From contig PFFW01000124.1 of the NCBI GenBank assembly GCA_002781745.1, positions 1 through 64,000 on the forward strand: 64,000 bases of DNA, in the 5' to 3' direction. Position numbers and translations under genes: made by a program. Source of the stretch: Rhodospirillales bacterium CG15_BIG_FIL_POST_REV_8_21_14_020_66_15. Its GTDB lineage: Bacteria; Pseudomonadota; Alphaproteobacteria; Rhodospirillales; Casp-alpha2. The notes under the pieces are model-generated. The model was given only the letters and a program-made list of their open reading frames with translations. It had not been told where the DNA came from and made no database searches. Shown here one piece after another: positions 3,587-21,672 of this stretch. Numbering within the stretch: the stretch's first letter is position 1; each line of letters opens with the position of its first letter.

Positions 3587-4225
3587 ATGAACACCACGCA
3601 ACACAACGGTGACATCGAATTCTATTTCGATTTCTCCTCGCCCTACGGCTACCTGGCGGCGCAGAAGATCGACAAGATCGGTGAGCGCTACGGCCGCCGC
3701 GTCAACTGGCATCCCATCATGCTGGGCGTGATCTTCAAGGAAACGGGCAATCAGGCCAACGCCGACATCGGATTGAAGGGCGACTACATGCGCATGGACG
3801 TGCCGCGCGTGGCCCGGATGATGGGCGCGCCCTTCACCTGGCCGGAGCCGTTCCCCGTGGCGACCCTGGCGGCGGCGCGCGCCTACTACTGGCTGCAGGG
3901 CCACGATCCGGCCAAGGCCGTGCCCTTCGCCAAAGCGGTGTACAATCATTATTTCGGCAAGGGGGCGGATATTTCCGACGTGCAGGAGATCGTCCTGATC
4001 GCCGAGGAAATGGGTATCGACGGAGCGGCGCTCGCCGAGGCCGTGACCCGCGACGACGTCAAGCAGCGGGTCAAGGACAAGACGGCGGAAGCCTTGGACC
4101 TGGGCGTGTTCGGCTCGCCCTATTTTCTGATCGACGGCGAGCCGTTCTTCGGCTCGGACCGCCTGTGGCAGATCGAACGTTTCCTGGGCAAGGGCGCGGA
4201 CACGTCCGGCCCGGACGGCGACTGA
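3587..4225 (+). CDS. 2-hydroxychromene-2-carboxylate isomerase-like (DsbA/GST-kappa fold)
   Basis: This 212-residue protein begins with FYFDFSSPYGYLA, the diagnostic N-terminus of the HCCA isomerase/GST-kappa branch of the DsbA superfamily, where the serine replaces the redox cysteine pair. The C-terminal FGSPYFLIDGEPFFGSDRLWQ is also typical. Family members isomerise hydroxychromene carboxylates in naphthalene breakdown or use glutathione on other substrates. No other aromatic-degradation gene is nearby, so the physiological substrate is open. The ATG at 3587 follows GGACGGAGAG. Confidence 0.85.
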   Translation: MNTTQHNGDIEFYFDFSSPYGYLAAQKIDKIGERYGRRVNWHPIMLGVIFKETGNQANADIGLKGDYMRMDVPRVARMMGAPFTWPEPFPVATLAAARAYYWLQGHDPAKAVPFAKAVYNHYFGKGADISDVQEIVLIAEEMGIDGAALAEAVTRDDVKQRVKDKTAEALDLGVFGSPYFLIDGEPFFGSDRLWQIERFLGKGADTSGPDGD

Positions 4226-9524: not shown

Positions 9525-10358
9525 ATGCCCCTGAAAGATATCTTGGTTCATGTGGAGTTGAACGCGGAATCGGACCGCCGCTTGAAGGCGGCGATGTCGC
9601 TGGCGCAAGCCCATGGTGCCCATATGGTCGGGCTTTACGTCGTTCCGCGTCCCTACATTCCGGCTTATGCCGAGGTGCAGATCAGCGCCGACGTCATGGA
9701 GGCCCAGCGCGAGGCGGCGAAGGAAGGAGCCGAGCGCGCCGAAACAGCGTTCAAGGCCGCGGCCGGCGGTTCCGGCCTGTCCGTGGAATGGCGCGCCCAG
9801 GAAGGGGACATGGGCCGGGTTCTCGCCTTCCATAGCCGCTACGCCGACCTGACCGTGGTCAGCCAGCCCAATCCCGATCACAGCCTGTTTCCCGGCGACC
9901 GCGACCTCCCGGACCGCCTGATCCTGACGGCGGGACGGCCGGTGCTGGTGCTGCCCTTTGAATACTCGGGCGATTTGGCGGGCAAGCGCATCCTGGTCGC
10001 CTGGGACGAGAGTCCCCTGGCGTCCCGCGCCGTCCACGATGCCCTGCCGCTCTTGCAATCGGCGGATAAGGTCGTCGTCATGGTCGCCAATCCGGCCCAG
10101 GTTCCCGATGAGAAACGCGTCCCGGGGGCCGACATCGCCGCCCACTTGGCCCGCCACGGGGTGACGGTGGAGGCCGACCACGTGACCTCGGACGAGGTCG
10201 ATGTCGGCAACCTTCTCTTGTCCCGCGCCGCCGACATGTCGGCGGACATGATGGTGATGGGGGGCTACGGTCACGCGCGCTGGTCCGAACTGATCCTGGG
10301 CGGCGTCACCAACGCGGTGCTGTCGAACCAGACCGTGCCGGTGGTGTTGTCCCACTGA
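9525..10358 (+). CDS. Universal stress protein with two UspA domains
   Basis: This 277-residue protein carries two Usp folds in tandem. The first begins KDILVHVELN (residue 4), the second KRILVAWDES (about residue 155). The second ends with GGYGHARWSELILGGVT, close to the ATP-binding G-2X-G-9X-G(S/T) signature; the first lacks a clear copy. Tandem Usps are common in alphaproteobacteria under stress or low oxygen. The ATG follows AAGGGAGGAGCGCT, a strong ribosome site. An FNR-type box upstream suggests anaerobic induction. Confidence 0.9.
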   Translation: MPLKDILVHVELNAESDRRLKAAMSLAQAHGAHMVGLYVVPRPYIPAYAEVQISADVMEAQREAAKEGAERAETAFKAAAGGSGLSVEWRAQEGDMGRVLAFHSRYADLTVVSQPNPDHSLFPGDRDLPDRLILTAGRPVLVLPFEYSGDLAGKRILVAWDESPLASRAVHDALPLLQSADKVVVMVANPAQVPDEKRVPGADIAAHLARHGVTVEADHVTSDEVDVGNLLLSRAADMSADMMVMGGYGHARWSELILGGVTNAVLSNQTVPVVLSH

Positions 10359-18616: not shown

Positions 18617-19282
18617 CTAGCTGTCGTAGCCGCGCCCGCCGTGGGCCAGGGACCATTTCTCCGGGTCGTCGAGGAACGCGCGAACCCCCGCGATGGCCTC
18701 CGCGTCGAAGTATCCGCCATCCTCGGCCACCTGCAACACGTCTTTCCAGGTTGCCAGATAGCGCAGCGTCACGCCCTCCTTTTCCAGGCTTTCCAGGGCG
18801 CCTCGGAACACGCCGTAGAAGAACACCACGAAGGCGTCGGTGACCTCGGCCCCCGCGTTGCGCAGCGCATTGACGAAATTCAGCTTGGACGCCCCGTCCG
18901 ACGCCAGATCCTCGACCAGCAGGACCTTCGATCCCTCGACCAGATTGCCCTCGATCTGGGCGTCGCGGCCGAAGCCCTTGGGCTGTTTGCGCACGTAGAG
19001 CATGGGCTTGGAGGCGGCCTCGGAGATCCAGGCGGCGTAGGGGATGCCGGCGGTCTCGCCGCCGGCGACCATATCGACGTCGTCCAGGCCGGCGTCGCGG
19101 CGCAGCATTTCGACCCCCAGTTCGATGATTCGGCGGCGAGCCTCCAGGAACGAGATCACCCACCGGCAGTCGATATAGACCGGGCTCGCCCAGCCCGAGG
19201 TGAACATGTAGGGCTCCCGCGGGCGGAAGTTCACGGCCTTGATGTCGAGCAGAAGTTTCGCGGTTTCCTGGGCGGGGGTCAT
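18617..19282 (-). CDS. pyrE: Orotate phosphoribosyltransferase
   Basis: This 221-residue enzyme joins orotate to PRPP in pyrimidine synthesis. The PRPP loop reads VLLVEDLASDGAS (residues 120-132), the form usual for the longer alphaproteobacterial OPRTs. FTSGWASPVYIDCR (27-40) and YVRKQPKGFGRDAQIEG (96-112) supply orotate and PRPP contacts, including the flexible catalytic loop. The ATG at 19282 begins the conserved part; a longer open frame runs upstream but has no protein-like conservation. It is transcribed away from the candidate sRNA. Confidence 0.88.
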   Translation of the reverse strand: MTPAQETAKLLLDIKAVNFRPREPYMFTSGWASPVYIDCRWVISFLEARRRIIELGVEMLRRDAGLDDVDMVAGGETAGIPYAAWISEAASKPMLYVRKQPKGFGRDAQIEGNLVEGSKVLLVEDLASDGASKLNFVNALRNAGAEVTDAFVVFFYGVFRGALESLEKEGVTLRYLATWKDVLQVAEDGGYFDAEAIAGVRAFLDDPEKWSLAHGGRGYDS

Positions 19283-19471
19283 GGGAGCCTCGTTCTGTGC
19301 GGGACCGCCGGGGGGAAGGGCGATCCGGGGCGTTCGGAAGGACTGCGGCGGCGTTGCGTTCCGTTTAACCGGTTCGCCGGGGGGCCGCAAGCGCGCGAAC
19401 CTGGGGAAAACCGGGGCCGCCTTTCGCAACGCCGTGGACGGCGGTGGTTTCCGCGTTACGTCGATTTCTTC

Positions 19472-19500
19472 TTGTCGCTGGATGGTGTGTGGTATACCAT
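19472..19500 (+). promoter_or_regulatory. Candidate promoter and GntR-type operator upstream of the sRNA
   Basis: TTGTCG (19472-19477) is 17 bases from TACCAT (19495-19500), a plausible sigma-70 promoter starting RNA near 19507. The -10 overlaps TGGTATACCA (19490-19499), a perfect ten-base palindrome. TATAC-centred palindromes of this sort are operators of FadR-type GntR regulators. The combination suggests a repressible promoter. Evidence is pattern only. Confidence 0.35.
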
Positions 19501-19504
19501 ATGC

Positions 19505-19660
19505 CAATTACTTGAACGTCGCCGTGTCCGACGCCCTCCCAGGAGACCTGTGCTGGCAGTTCCGGTCTCCTCCCCGCTTGGCACGGCGACCTGTGATCAC
19601 TATTCTCCCTCCCAATCCTGGGGGCTCGGTCGACCACCGGCCGGGCCCCCGTTTCTTTTC
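19505..19660 (+). ncRNA. Candidate small RNA with anti-Shine-Dalgarno motifs and intrinsic terminator
   Basis: GTCGCCGTG (19518-19526) pairs perfectly with CACGGCGAC (19582-19590), extended by a G-U and a C-G pair. Inside it GGAGACC (19542-19548) pairs with GGTCTCC (19564-19570). A terminator follows at 19620-19660. Three pyrimidine tracts, CCCTCCC (19534-19540), CTCCTCCCC (19567-19575) and CTCCCTCCC (about 19605-19613), could pair with ribosome-binding sites, as in known alphaproteobacterial anti-SD sRNAs. It would be about 150 nt. It could instead be an attenuating leader of the sulfotransferase gene. Confidence 0.48.
19620..19660 (+). terminator. Rho-independent terminator upstream of the TPR-sulfotransferase gene
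   Basis: GGGGGCTCGGTC (19620-19631) pairs with GGCCGGGCCCCC (19639-19650). That gives twelve pairs, two of them G-U, with a seven-base loop. GTTTCTTTTC follows. It points in the plus direction and lies 40 bases before the sulfotransferase GTG, so it must end a separate transcript or attenuate that gene. Confidence 0.7.
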
Positions 19661-19701
19661 ATCCGCGTCGGACGACCTCCGTCCGGGGAGGGGCCCCAAT
19701 C

Positions 19702-21672
19702 GTGAACCGCCAGGAACGGCGACGCCAGAAGAAGCTCGCGGTCGCGGCCGACCGGCCGACAGCGCAGACCCGCGCGCGCCTGGCGGCGGGCGTGCGGGCG
19801 TTCCGCGAGGGCCGCTATGCCGAGGCCGAGGAGGCCTTCGCCAAGGTTCTGGCCGAACGCCCGCGCGAGGCCGAGGCCCTCCACCTTCTGGGCCTGATCG
19901 AATACCGCACGGGAAGGCTCGGCCAGGCGGCGGACCATCTCGTCGCGGCCTCCATGGTCGACGGCGACGACCCGGCAATCCACGCCAACCTGGCGGCCGT
20001 CCTCAATCTGTGCGGCCGCGGCGCCGAGGCCGAGGCCGCGGCGCGCCATGTGCTGGAACTGCGGCCCGACAACGCGGAGGCCTACAACAATCTGGCCGTC
20101 GCCCTGGAGTTGCAGGACCGCCTCGACGAGGCCGAGGCCTGCGGCAAGCGAGCGGTCGAACTCGACCCCGCGCACCTGGAAGCGCATATCAACCTGGGAA
20201 ATCTCTATTTCCGCAAGGGCGCCTTGGCCGAAGCGGCCGACCTTTACCGCCGCGCCGCCGAGATCGACCCGGCCAATCCCATGGCGCCCGGCAATCTGGG
20301 CGTCGTCCTGCGCCGCCTGGGCGATTTGGCCGCGGCCGAGGACTCTTGCCGCCGCGCGATCGCGCTGAAGTCCGATTATCCCGAGGGCTACAACGCGCTC
20401 GGCAACGTGCTGATGGCGCGCGGCGACATCGTGGGCGCGCTCGACTCCTTCCGCGCGGCGCTGGTCCACCGCGAGGGCTATCTGGAGGCGCGCGCCAACC
20501 TGGCCGGCGCCTTGTTCAAGTCGGGCGACCTGGAAAAGGCCGAGGAGGCCTATCGCGACACCGTCACCCGCTTCGACCGCTTCGCCGGCGCCTGGTCGGG
20601 GCTGGGCACGGTGCTGCTGGCCAAGGGCGACACGGCGGGCGCGGAACAGGCGTTCCTCATGGCCGTCGAGGCACACCAGGGCCTGGGCGACGCCTGGGTC
20701 AACCTGGCCGCCGCCGGGGCGCTGACCGAGGAGCACGAGGGGCAGCTTGCCGAGCTTCTCGAAACCGCGCCGGAAAATGACCAGACCGCGCAACTGCTGT
20801 TCGCCCTGGGCGCCGCGAAGGACCGGCGCGGCGACCATGCCGGCGCGTTCGACGCCTTCGCCAAGGGCAACGTCCTGCGCCGCCGCCTTCTGGAGGGAGC
20901 CGGGCAGGGTTTCGACGCCGACCGCCTGGACACCTGGGTCGACGCCATCGTCGGCACCGTCGACGCGGCGATGCTTGAGAAATCCGAGGGCTGGGGCGAT
21001 CCGTCGCACGTGCCGGTGTTCGTCGTCGGCATGCCGCGATCGGGTACCACGCTGGTTGAGCAGATCATCTCCAGCCACCGCGAGGGCGCCGGGGCCGGCG
21101 AGCTGGACGCCCTGTCGCACCTGCTGCCGGACTATCCCGACGGCGTGGCCGACCTCGGCGCTGGGCGCGCGGCCGCCTTGGCCGGCAACTATCTGAACCG
21201 CCTGACCGCCGGGCGGGACGCCGCGCACATCGTCGACAAGACGCCCTTCAACATATTCCTTCTGGGCCTGGCGCAGATGCTGTTGCCGGGGGTCCGGATC
21301 GTCCATTGCCTGCGCGACGCCAAGGACACGGCGCTGTCCTGCTTCTTCACCAATTTCGCCCAGGGCCTGGCCTGGTCCACGGACTTAAGCGACATCGCCC
21401 GCATGCAGGCCGCCCAGGACCGCGTCATGGCCCATTGGCGCGGGGTTCTCGACCTGCCCATCCACGAGGTCCGCTACGAGGACCTGATCGCCGACCAGGA
21501 GGGACAGAGCCGTGCCCTGATCGATTTCCTAGGGCTGGATTGGGACCCGGACTGCCTGGATTTTCACAAATCCGGTCAAGCGGTGCTCACGGCCTCCAAC
21601 TGGCAGGTCCGCAAACCGCTGTACAAGAACGCCGTCGGGCGGGCCAAGGCCTACGCCGCCTTCATGGGCTGA
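19702..21672 (+). CDS. TPR-repeat protein with C-terminal sulfotransferase domain
   Basis: This 656-residue protein has about ten TPR repeats from residue 30 to 370 (for example LYRRAAEIDPANPMAPGNLG). A PAPS-dependent sulfotransferase domain follows from about residue 435. Its 5'-phosphosulfate loop is VVGMPRSGTTLVEQIISSH (GMPRSGTT at 443-450), and VRYEDLIADQEGQSRALIDFLGLDW is further on. Such fusions sulfate proteins or glycans, with the TPRs recruiting the substrate. The start is GTG at 19702 after GGGGAGGGG. No signal peptide is visible. Confidence 0.88.
   Translation: MNRQERRRQKKLAVAADRPTAQTRARLAAGVRAFREGRYAEAEEAFAKVLAERPREAEALHLLGLIEYRTGRLGQAADHLVAASMVDGDDPAIHANLAAVLNLCGRGAEAEAAARHVLELRPDNAEAYNNLAVALELQDRLDEAEACGKRAVELDPAHLEAHINLGNLYFRKGALAEAADLYRRAAEIDPANPMAPGNLGVVLRRLGDLAAAEDSCRRAIALKSDYPEGYNALGNVLMARGDIVGALDSFRAALVHREGYLEARANLAGALFKSGDLEKAEEAYRDTVTRFDRFAGAWSGLGTVLLAKGDTAGAEQAFLMAVEAHQGLGDAWVNLAAAGALTEEHEGQLAELLETAPENDQTAQLLFALGAAKDRRGDHAGAFDAFAKGNVLRRRLLEGAGQGFDADRLDTWVDAIVGTVDAAMLEKSEGWGDPSHVPVFVVGMPRSGTTLVEQIISSHREGAGAGELDALSHLLPDYPDGVADLGAGRAAALAGNYLNRLTAGRDAAHIVDKTPFNIFLLGLAQMLLPGVRIVHCLRDAKDTALSCFFTNFAQGLAWSTDLSDIARMQAAQDRVMAHWRGVLDLPIHEVRYEDLIADQEGQSRALIDFLGLDWDPDCLDFHKSGQAVLTASNWQVRKPLYKNAVGRAKAYAAFMG

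Follow-up and report, generated by a model that had tools for sequence, protein, structure and literature searches.

Genes and Features of the Locus

The window considered here is the whole stretch of DNA that was analyzed, 64,000 nucleotides in length, and the region of interest, 19505-19660, lies in it between two divergently oriented genes. The upstream neighbor (18617-19282, reverse strand) matches Pfam family PF00156 with an E value of 1e-4 but, at 22.1 bits, does not reach the cut-off of 26.3 set for the family, and is presumably pyrE, encoding orotate phosphoribosyltransferase. Downstream, on the forward strand, a gene with a GTG start (19702-21672) encodes a protein of 656 residues matching Sulfotransfer_3 (4.2e-36) together with TPR families of Pfam, hereafter called the TPR-sulfotransferase; its Shine-Dalgarno stretch GGGGAGGGG (19685-19693, forward strand) ends 8 nt before the GTG. 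We compared this arrangement among eight genomes of the genus, G000 to G007, of which G000 is the genome of the window. The start of the pyrE-like gene lies upstream in the same divergent orientation in 7/7 of the genus genomes checked, the contig of G001 ending there, and the sulfotransferase gene is matched in all eight with 71-100% identity. The latter is distributed more widely than the genus, since 39 of 48 genomes of the family have a match at E ≤ 1e-60.

A first-pass annotation of the letters alone had seen here a perfect nine-pair stem enclosing a shorter one, a terminator and three tracts resembling the anti-Shine-Dalgarno sequence, which it read as a trans-acting small RNA (sRNA) of about 150 nt or, failing that, as a 6S-like RNA or a leader attenuating the sulfotransferase gene. 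Most of this description stands. The arms of the nine-pair stem on the forward strand, GTCGCCGTG (19518-19526) and CACGGCGAC (19582-19590), are indeed perfect reverse complements in the window, and a terminator stem followed by the T-run TTTCTTTT is present as described. The inner stem also exists, with eight pairs in the minimum free energy (MFE) structure instead of the seven counted by eye, and the terminator stem at 19619-19651 has 14 pairs as predicted by the tool instead of 12. All three CU-rich tracts are found, namely CCCTCCC as tract 1 (19534-19540), CTCCTCCCC as tract 2 (19567-19575) and CTCCCTCCC as tract 3 (19605-19613); tract 2, however, is not in a loop, most of it being part of the inner stem, on its 3' side.

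A Conserved, Probable Promoter Upstream of the Sulfotransferase Gene

A promoter scan of positions 19200-19800 reports a single sigma70-type site, hereafter P2 (19578-19606, forward strand), which combines TTGGCA (19578-19583) and TATTCT (19601-19606) with 17 nt between them; shuffled sequences give a mean of 0.0 sites. TTGGCA is found upstream of the sulfotransferase gene in 8/8 genomes with exactly the same 17-nt spacing, while the -10 box reads TATTCT in seven genomes and TAGTCT in G004, which keeps the P2 layout and has a panE gene between P2 and the second candidate promoter discussed below. The block running from GCTTGGCA to CTCCCTCCC shows 90% identity, as compared with 72% for the spacer that it contains. 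P2 thus has the -35 and -10 boxes of a sigma70-type promoter at a spacing within the range of 16-18 nt, and has them also in the relatives.

Tract 3 (19605-19613, forward strand) covers the end of this -10 box and the C-rich discriminator that follows, the start of transcription, which at a sigma70-type promoter lies about 7 nt after the -10 box, being placed by inference at A19614. The same layout, expressed as CTTGNNN-N16-18-TANNNTCCSYCC, has 35 matches in the eight genomes, seven of which are the target locus, against five for a control motif read backward. This motif was drafted with knowledge of the target and of the regions upstream of 30 tRNA genes in the genome of the window, a few of which have a C-rich stretch after the -10 box whereas most do not. 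Nor are the 28 other matches independent, since a small number of loci, recurring in several genomes, account for most of them. Thirty of the 35 matches were fetched, five of them being the target, so that 25 other loci were examined: 12 precede a gene for tRNA-Thr, tRNA-Arg or tRNA-Cys by no more than 90 nt, eight precede an open reading frame of more than 300 residues by no more than 40 nt, and five have no clear downstream gene. The P2 layout is thus in use at genes of the genus, with 20/25 of these loci placed just upstream of a tRNA gene or long reading frame. From their sequence, we take the long reading frames to be MnmA-like (four), ThrS-like (three) and LysR-like (one). In the four MnmA-like cases (among motif loci L137-L165), the ATG stands one base after the C-rich stretch, a position that suggests leaderless starts and, by analogy, A19614 as the probable first base of the P2 transcript.

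Given this promoter layout and its recurrence at tRNA and other genes, we read tract 3 as the discriminator of P2 and not as the seed of an RNA; on sequence grounds, promoter DNA appears to be the better explanation for it than an anti-Shine-Dalgarno seed. P2 resembles the housekeeping promoters of the tRNA genes of the genus in having CTTG, the spacing, TANNNT and CCSYCC in the same order with a gene downstream. It differs from them in two respects: a terminator-like hairpin would stand at the beginning of its transcript, and there is a further candidate promoter about 85 bp upstream.

An Upstream Candidate Promoter Overlapped by a Palindrome

This second candidate, P1 (19472-19500, forward strand), has the sequence TTGTCG-N17-TACCAT, would start transcription near 19507 and does not reach the threshold at which the promoter scan reports a site. 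The form TTGNNN-N17-TACCAT is found in 6/6 orthologues of the same layout, whereas the spacing is 18 in G004. The distance from P1 to P2 is 86-87 nt in all six, a near-constancy that may reflect selection on the intervening segment.

Overlapping the -10 box of P1 is the near-palindrome TGGTATACCATATGCCA (19490-19506, not assigned to a strand), a candidate operator of the GntR/FadR type. This 17-bp element, in the form TGGTATACCATATNCCA, occurs once per genome and always at the target locus in 7/8 genomes, the contig of G001 beginning inside the region. According to PMC4494728, regulators of the FadR subfamily bind boxes of the form TKGT/ACMA, in most sites with 3 nt between GT and AC. The sequence TGGTATACCA has such a palindrome, sharing the TGGT..ACCA boxes of the operators described there and lying over a candidate promoter; it departs from them in its arrangement TGGTATA-CCA-TATRCCA and in the distance from GT to AC, which is 2 nt instead of the usual 3. 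Related sites elsewhere adjoin genes of the GntR family, of the FCD type (L010, L011 and L012) or the UTRA type (L034), which is an association only. Its form and its position suggest that the palindrome is likely a GntR-type operator.

The Segment between the Promoters and the History of panE

The segment between P1 and P2 (19507-19575, forward strand) carries the 5' arm of the nine-pair stem as well as tracts 1 and 2, and may be the scar of a panE deletion. It shows 54-62% pairwise identity outside the block of tract 1 and has no conserved fold. The block itself (19531-19542, forward strand), which reads CGCCCTCCCAGG in the window and TGTCCTCCCAGG in most relatives, has 92% pairwise identity over six sequences within this otherwise variable segment. 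Such conservation of tract 1 (TCCTCCCAGG), measured in the aligned sequences, exceeds what would be expected of a neutral scar and counts against reading the segment as one.

The possibility of a scar arises from G004, in which the order is pyrE, P1 with its operator, panE, P2, the hairpin and the sulfotransferase gene, panE being identified by the Pfam families ApbA and ApbA_C. G004 is the first branch within the genus, before the other seven genomes (support 91/92). A panE gene adjoins the sulfotransferase gene in G004, in the single genome of genus g12 and in 5/10 genomes of genus g14, while the other seven genomes of the genus under study lack a close match to the panE of G004 and contain, elsewhere, only matches of up to about 50% identity. 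This distribution points to a loss of panE in the seven, although the nearest other genus in the tree, g7, does not have panE beside the sulfotransferase gene, and G004 may instead have gained it. We consider that panE was probably lost, in which case part of the supposed sRNA body, situated where G004 has panE, may derive from its deletion.

Direct comparison of the segment with the 3' end of the panE of G004 gives a mixed picture. The alignment score of G007 is reached by 0/500 shuffled sequences and that of G003 by 12/500, but for the other four orthologues between 21 and 95 of 500 shuffles score as high, and the alignments of the window and of G006 fall in another register. The part of the segment proximal to P1 has no similarity to panE in 6/6 orthologues, and in the alignments of G007 and G003 tract 1 lies over panE codons. 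The 69 nt between the operator and P2 may thus be a remnant of panE. If the loss is real, the locus illustrates how two promoters can be brought together by the loss of a single gene.

The Hairpin behind P2 and the Fold of the Region

The terminator-like hairpin (19619-19651) and its T-run (19652-19659), both on the forward strand, begin 5 nt after the inferred start of the P2 transcript. A hairpin with a T-rich tail lies between P2 and the gene in 8/8 genomes, seven of these hairpins being found also in separate folding, and it is the sole element of RNA structure that recurs in all eight. With 14 pairs and TTTCTTTT, the element of the window has the makeup of an intrinsic terminator. We aligned the region in two ways. 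The first alignment, A1, contains 6/8 genomes, leaving out G001, which is cut by a contig end, and G004, which has a different layout; the counts of terminator pairs that it gives are too low because the terminator of G003 and G007 is shifted by a few columns. The second, A2, corrects this shift and has six rows for seven genomes, G002 and G005 sharing one row and G006 being left out. On A2, 94.7% of the cells of the terminator helix are paired and two pairs are changed on both sides, a value equaled by 89/500 shuffles.

The 156-nt stretch as a whole folds with an MFE of -70.1 kcal/mol, compared with a mean of -49.5 (sd 4.0) for shuffled sequences (z -5.11), and 0/200 shuffles fold as stably; since the fold was picked by eye out of 64 kb, this z-score alone does not prove function. 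When the stretch is divided in two, the 5' part has a z-score of -3.61 and the terminator part of -3.57. In six orthologues, the terminator part gives z-scores from -2.2 to -3.6 (-1.95 in G004). The 5' part, taken up to tract 3, gives -3.6 in the window and 0.3, -0.75, -0.6, -0.9 and -3.9 in the others; it is unusually stable in 2/6 orthologues (-3.6 in the window and -3.9), and the folds of those two differ.

The pairs of the 5' part behave likewise on A1. The nine-pair helix (5' arm 19518-19526, 3' arm 19582-19590) has 59.3% of its cells paired over the six orthologues, with three of nine pairs present in the window only and one pair changed on both sides; the inner helix reaches 70.8%, with two pairs changed on both sides among the same six close relatives. 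For the whole structure, the share of paired cells is reached by 13/500 shuffles and the covariation score by 8/500. RNAalifold proposes a different 5' hairpin for A1, in which 6/34 pairs are changed on both sides and the covariation term is only -0.13. Tract 2 is not kept in the genus orthologues compared, and tract 1 is predicted to be at least partly paired in several of them. The first-pass annotation had itself named a lack of stem conservation in relatives as evidence against its sRNA; folding of the relatives now shows that the 5' stem is not conserved as a stable fold (2/6 orthologues, in unlike forms), which by the annotation's own standard speaks against the sRNA. Comparison within the genus shows that P2, the operator and the hairpin are kept and that a stable 5' fold is not.

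Distribution beyond the Locus

A DNA search of 61 genomes returned clear matches in the eight genus genomes only, all others staying below 40 bits, and the window's own genome contains no further copy above 40 bits. A 79% match in contig C9 (L032) was considered as a copy and set aside, since on inspection by eye it seems to code for protein. Exact matches to a core pattern in which 22 bases are fixed were sought in 84,980 genomes, the window's own genome being left out; the scan gave five records, all of this genus, with G002 and G006 not listed. The covariance model built from the six orthologues was then run over 199 genomes of the order, 21 of which gave matches at E ≤ 0.1. Strong matches (at least 52.7 bits) were obtained in six genomes, all of the genus; the 16 weaker matches, one of them in G000 itself, have at most 27.7 bits. 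Six of the latter that we read (L130-L135) are mostly terminator-like hairpins without the promoter blocks. With its strong matches confined to the genus, a wider RNA family was rejected. The limitation of the matches to one genus and one locus gives the region the look of a single-locus, genus-level feature. Of note, L131 and L135, from genus g69 of another family, have TTTCCTCCCAAACCTTGGGCC directly before a strong terminator, a configuration resembling the junction of tract 3 and terminator in the window.

We also read by eye the region upstream of the sulfotransferase gene at 22 loci in seven other genera and found no comparable hairpin with a T-run; this reading comes from a listing of 30 loci, eight of which have no start motif, and the sequence read for L060 and L063 is internal to the gene. 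A small leader peptide was rejected too, its frame being broken between relatives, as judged by eye only.

Interpretation and Alternative Readings

The region 19505-19660 is a real and conserved regulatory region, of an ordinary kind, and the comparisons above make it probable that it serves the TPR-sulfotransferase gene as promoter and 5' leader. In this reading, P2 would be a housekeeping-type promoter that starts near A19614 and most likely drives the gene; its transcript would open almost directly with the hairpin 19619-19651 and the T-run, and continue into the sulfotransferase gene. P1 would add regulated transcription under the control of TGGTATACCATATGCCA, probably exerted by a regulator of the GntR/FadR type. 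Probably, P1 once headed a panE-sulfotransferase pair and has been close to P2 since panE was lost. Most of the RNA made from P1 would end at the T-run, leaving about 150 nt of truncated leader or by-product, and a short terminated RNA from the locus is possible. Placed at the 5' end of the P2 mRNA, the hairpin with its T-run could be attenuating or stabilizing.

For a gene that is expressed, it is unusual that the leader should have a strong terminator-like hairpin 5 nt after the start. The gap between T-run and GTG is 42 nt in the window, too short for another promoter, from which it would follow that any mRNA of the gene includes the hairpin; a longer gap, with possible room for another promoter, is found in G003 and G007. 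In leader attenuators with intrinsic terminators, a hairpin and T-run stand between promoter and gene, as they do here, and the present locus differs in that we found no leader peptide, ligand-binding fold or antiterminator. The element could be thought of as an attenuator at which transcripts from P1, P2 or both mostly halt, some signal permitting read-through into the gene. Apart from the hairpin with its T-rich tail, which separates P2 from the gene in 8/8 genomes, this idea could draw on the complementarity of the CCCTCCC in tract 3 to a GGGAGGG in the Shine-Dalgarno sequence, which holds in 5/7 of the genomes bearing CCCTCCC. GGGAGGG occurs at the Shine-Dalgarno sequence of the sulfotransferase in 5/8 genus genomes, yet any C-rich tract would be expected to show such complementarity, which is lacking in G003, G007 and G004. 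In addition, an unsystematic look identified no antiterminator pairing, and the P2 transcript has no room for an antiterminator upstream of the hairpin. We therefore regard attenuation as rather unlikely. Of the leader that the first-pass annotation had proposed as a third option, the leader itself is borne out by the hairpin between P2 and the gene in 8/8 genomes, and attenuation is retained as a candidate.

The original reading, a trans-acting sRNA of about 150 nt of the ar14/cuckoo kind that runs from P1 to 19659 and whose CU tracts would block the binding of ribosomes, can claim the conservation of P1 and terminator at nearly fixed spacing, that of tract 1 at 92%, the stable fold in the window, the weak pairing signal on A1 and the fact that the top-scoring Rfam match of the stretch, far below threshold, is ar14. 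On the other side, the 5' fold is unstable in 4/6 orthologues and differs in the other two, tract 2 is not conserved, tract 1 is partly paired in several orthologues and tract 3 is accounted for by P2. G004 has P2, the hairpin and the gene, and panE lies where the other parts would be expected. The core is confined to the target locus in one genus (5/5 exact-pattern matches) and covariance-model matches of at least 52 bits occur in genus genomes only (6 of 199 searched). The Rfam search proposed by the first-pass annotation, run at gathering thresholds, has no match in the whole 64-kb window; at a permissive threshold, the best match of the stretch (searched as 19300-19800) is ar14 with 16 bits and an E value of 1, far under the cut-off of 58.8 bits. 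We regard this reading as improbable. Nothing tested supports action in trans for the product of P1, and a trans-acting sRNA is unlikely.

A variant of the sRNA reading takes the panE loss into account, by supposing that the deletion placed a promoter under operator control next to a promoter-terminator pair so that an sRNA was born from the scar, with tract 1 (UCCUCCCAGG) as anti-Shine-Dalgarno seed under GntR-type control. We consider this very improbable; if true, the loss of panE would have given rise, within one genus, to a terminated RNA of about 150 nt that did not exist before. As for a 6S-like RNA, size and overall hairpin shape are the features in its favor. The stretch has no match to 6S (RF00013) at E values up to 10, and all eight genus genomes have one match elsewhere (E ≤ 0.001), over the cut-off in 5/8; these results refute the candidate, which was rejected. 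The 6S matches of the genus include L171-L174 and, in the window's genome, that on contig C85 at 3813-3985, with 52 bits.

The preferred reading as promoter and leader carries a caution for similar regions. C-rich discriminators of promoters in G+C-rich α-proteobacteria can mimic anti-Shine-Dalgarno tracts, and a promoter with a terminator-like hairpin close behind it can resemble an sRNA; comparison within the genus tells the two apart.

Comparison with the ar14 Family

According to PMC10746234, members of the ar14/cuckoo family (RF02344; NfeR1 in Sinorhizobium) form three hairpins, each with an unpaired CCUCCUCCC. A member would also be expected to repress mRNAs in trans by way of its anti-Shine-Dalgarno motifs. 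The stretch 19505-19660 has in common with the RNAs described there the CU-rich tracts of anti-Shine-Dalgarno type, a terminator of the intrinsic type and an α-proteobacterial host. It differs from that description in having one unconserved hairpin plus a terminator instead of three hairpins, and its tracts, unlike the repeated CCUCCUCCC, are not identical to each other, tract 2 being mostly paired as well as not conserved. Membership in ar14 was rejected, since the eight genus genomes have no match over the cut-off, the matches listed at E ≤ 1 do not include the locus and the MFE structure consists of one compound hairpin and the terminator.

The ar14 searches pointed to other places in these genomes. 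The best ar14 match of the window's genome is on contig C176 at 9751-9852 (L175, 1501-1602), with 35.1 bits and an E value of 1.1e-4, below the cut-off. This candidate has three predicted hairpins, with CUCCUCCUCCC in the loop of one and a terminator behind, and a DNA search of the genus matched its terminator part only, in 3/7 of the other genomes. On the predicted structure, it would be a better-looking candidate for an anti-Shine-Dalgarno sRNA than the stretch in the window. Another sub-threshold ar14 match, of 26.3 bits, is found in G004 (L177, contig C419, 2315-2435); here CCTCCCTCCC is predicted to lie in a loop, and a T-run follows.
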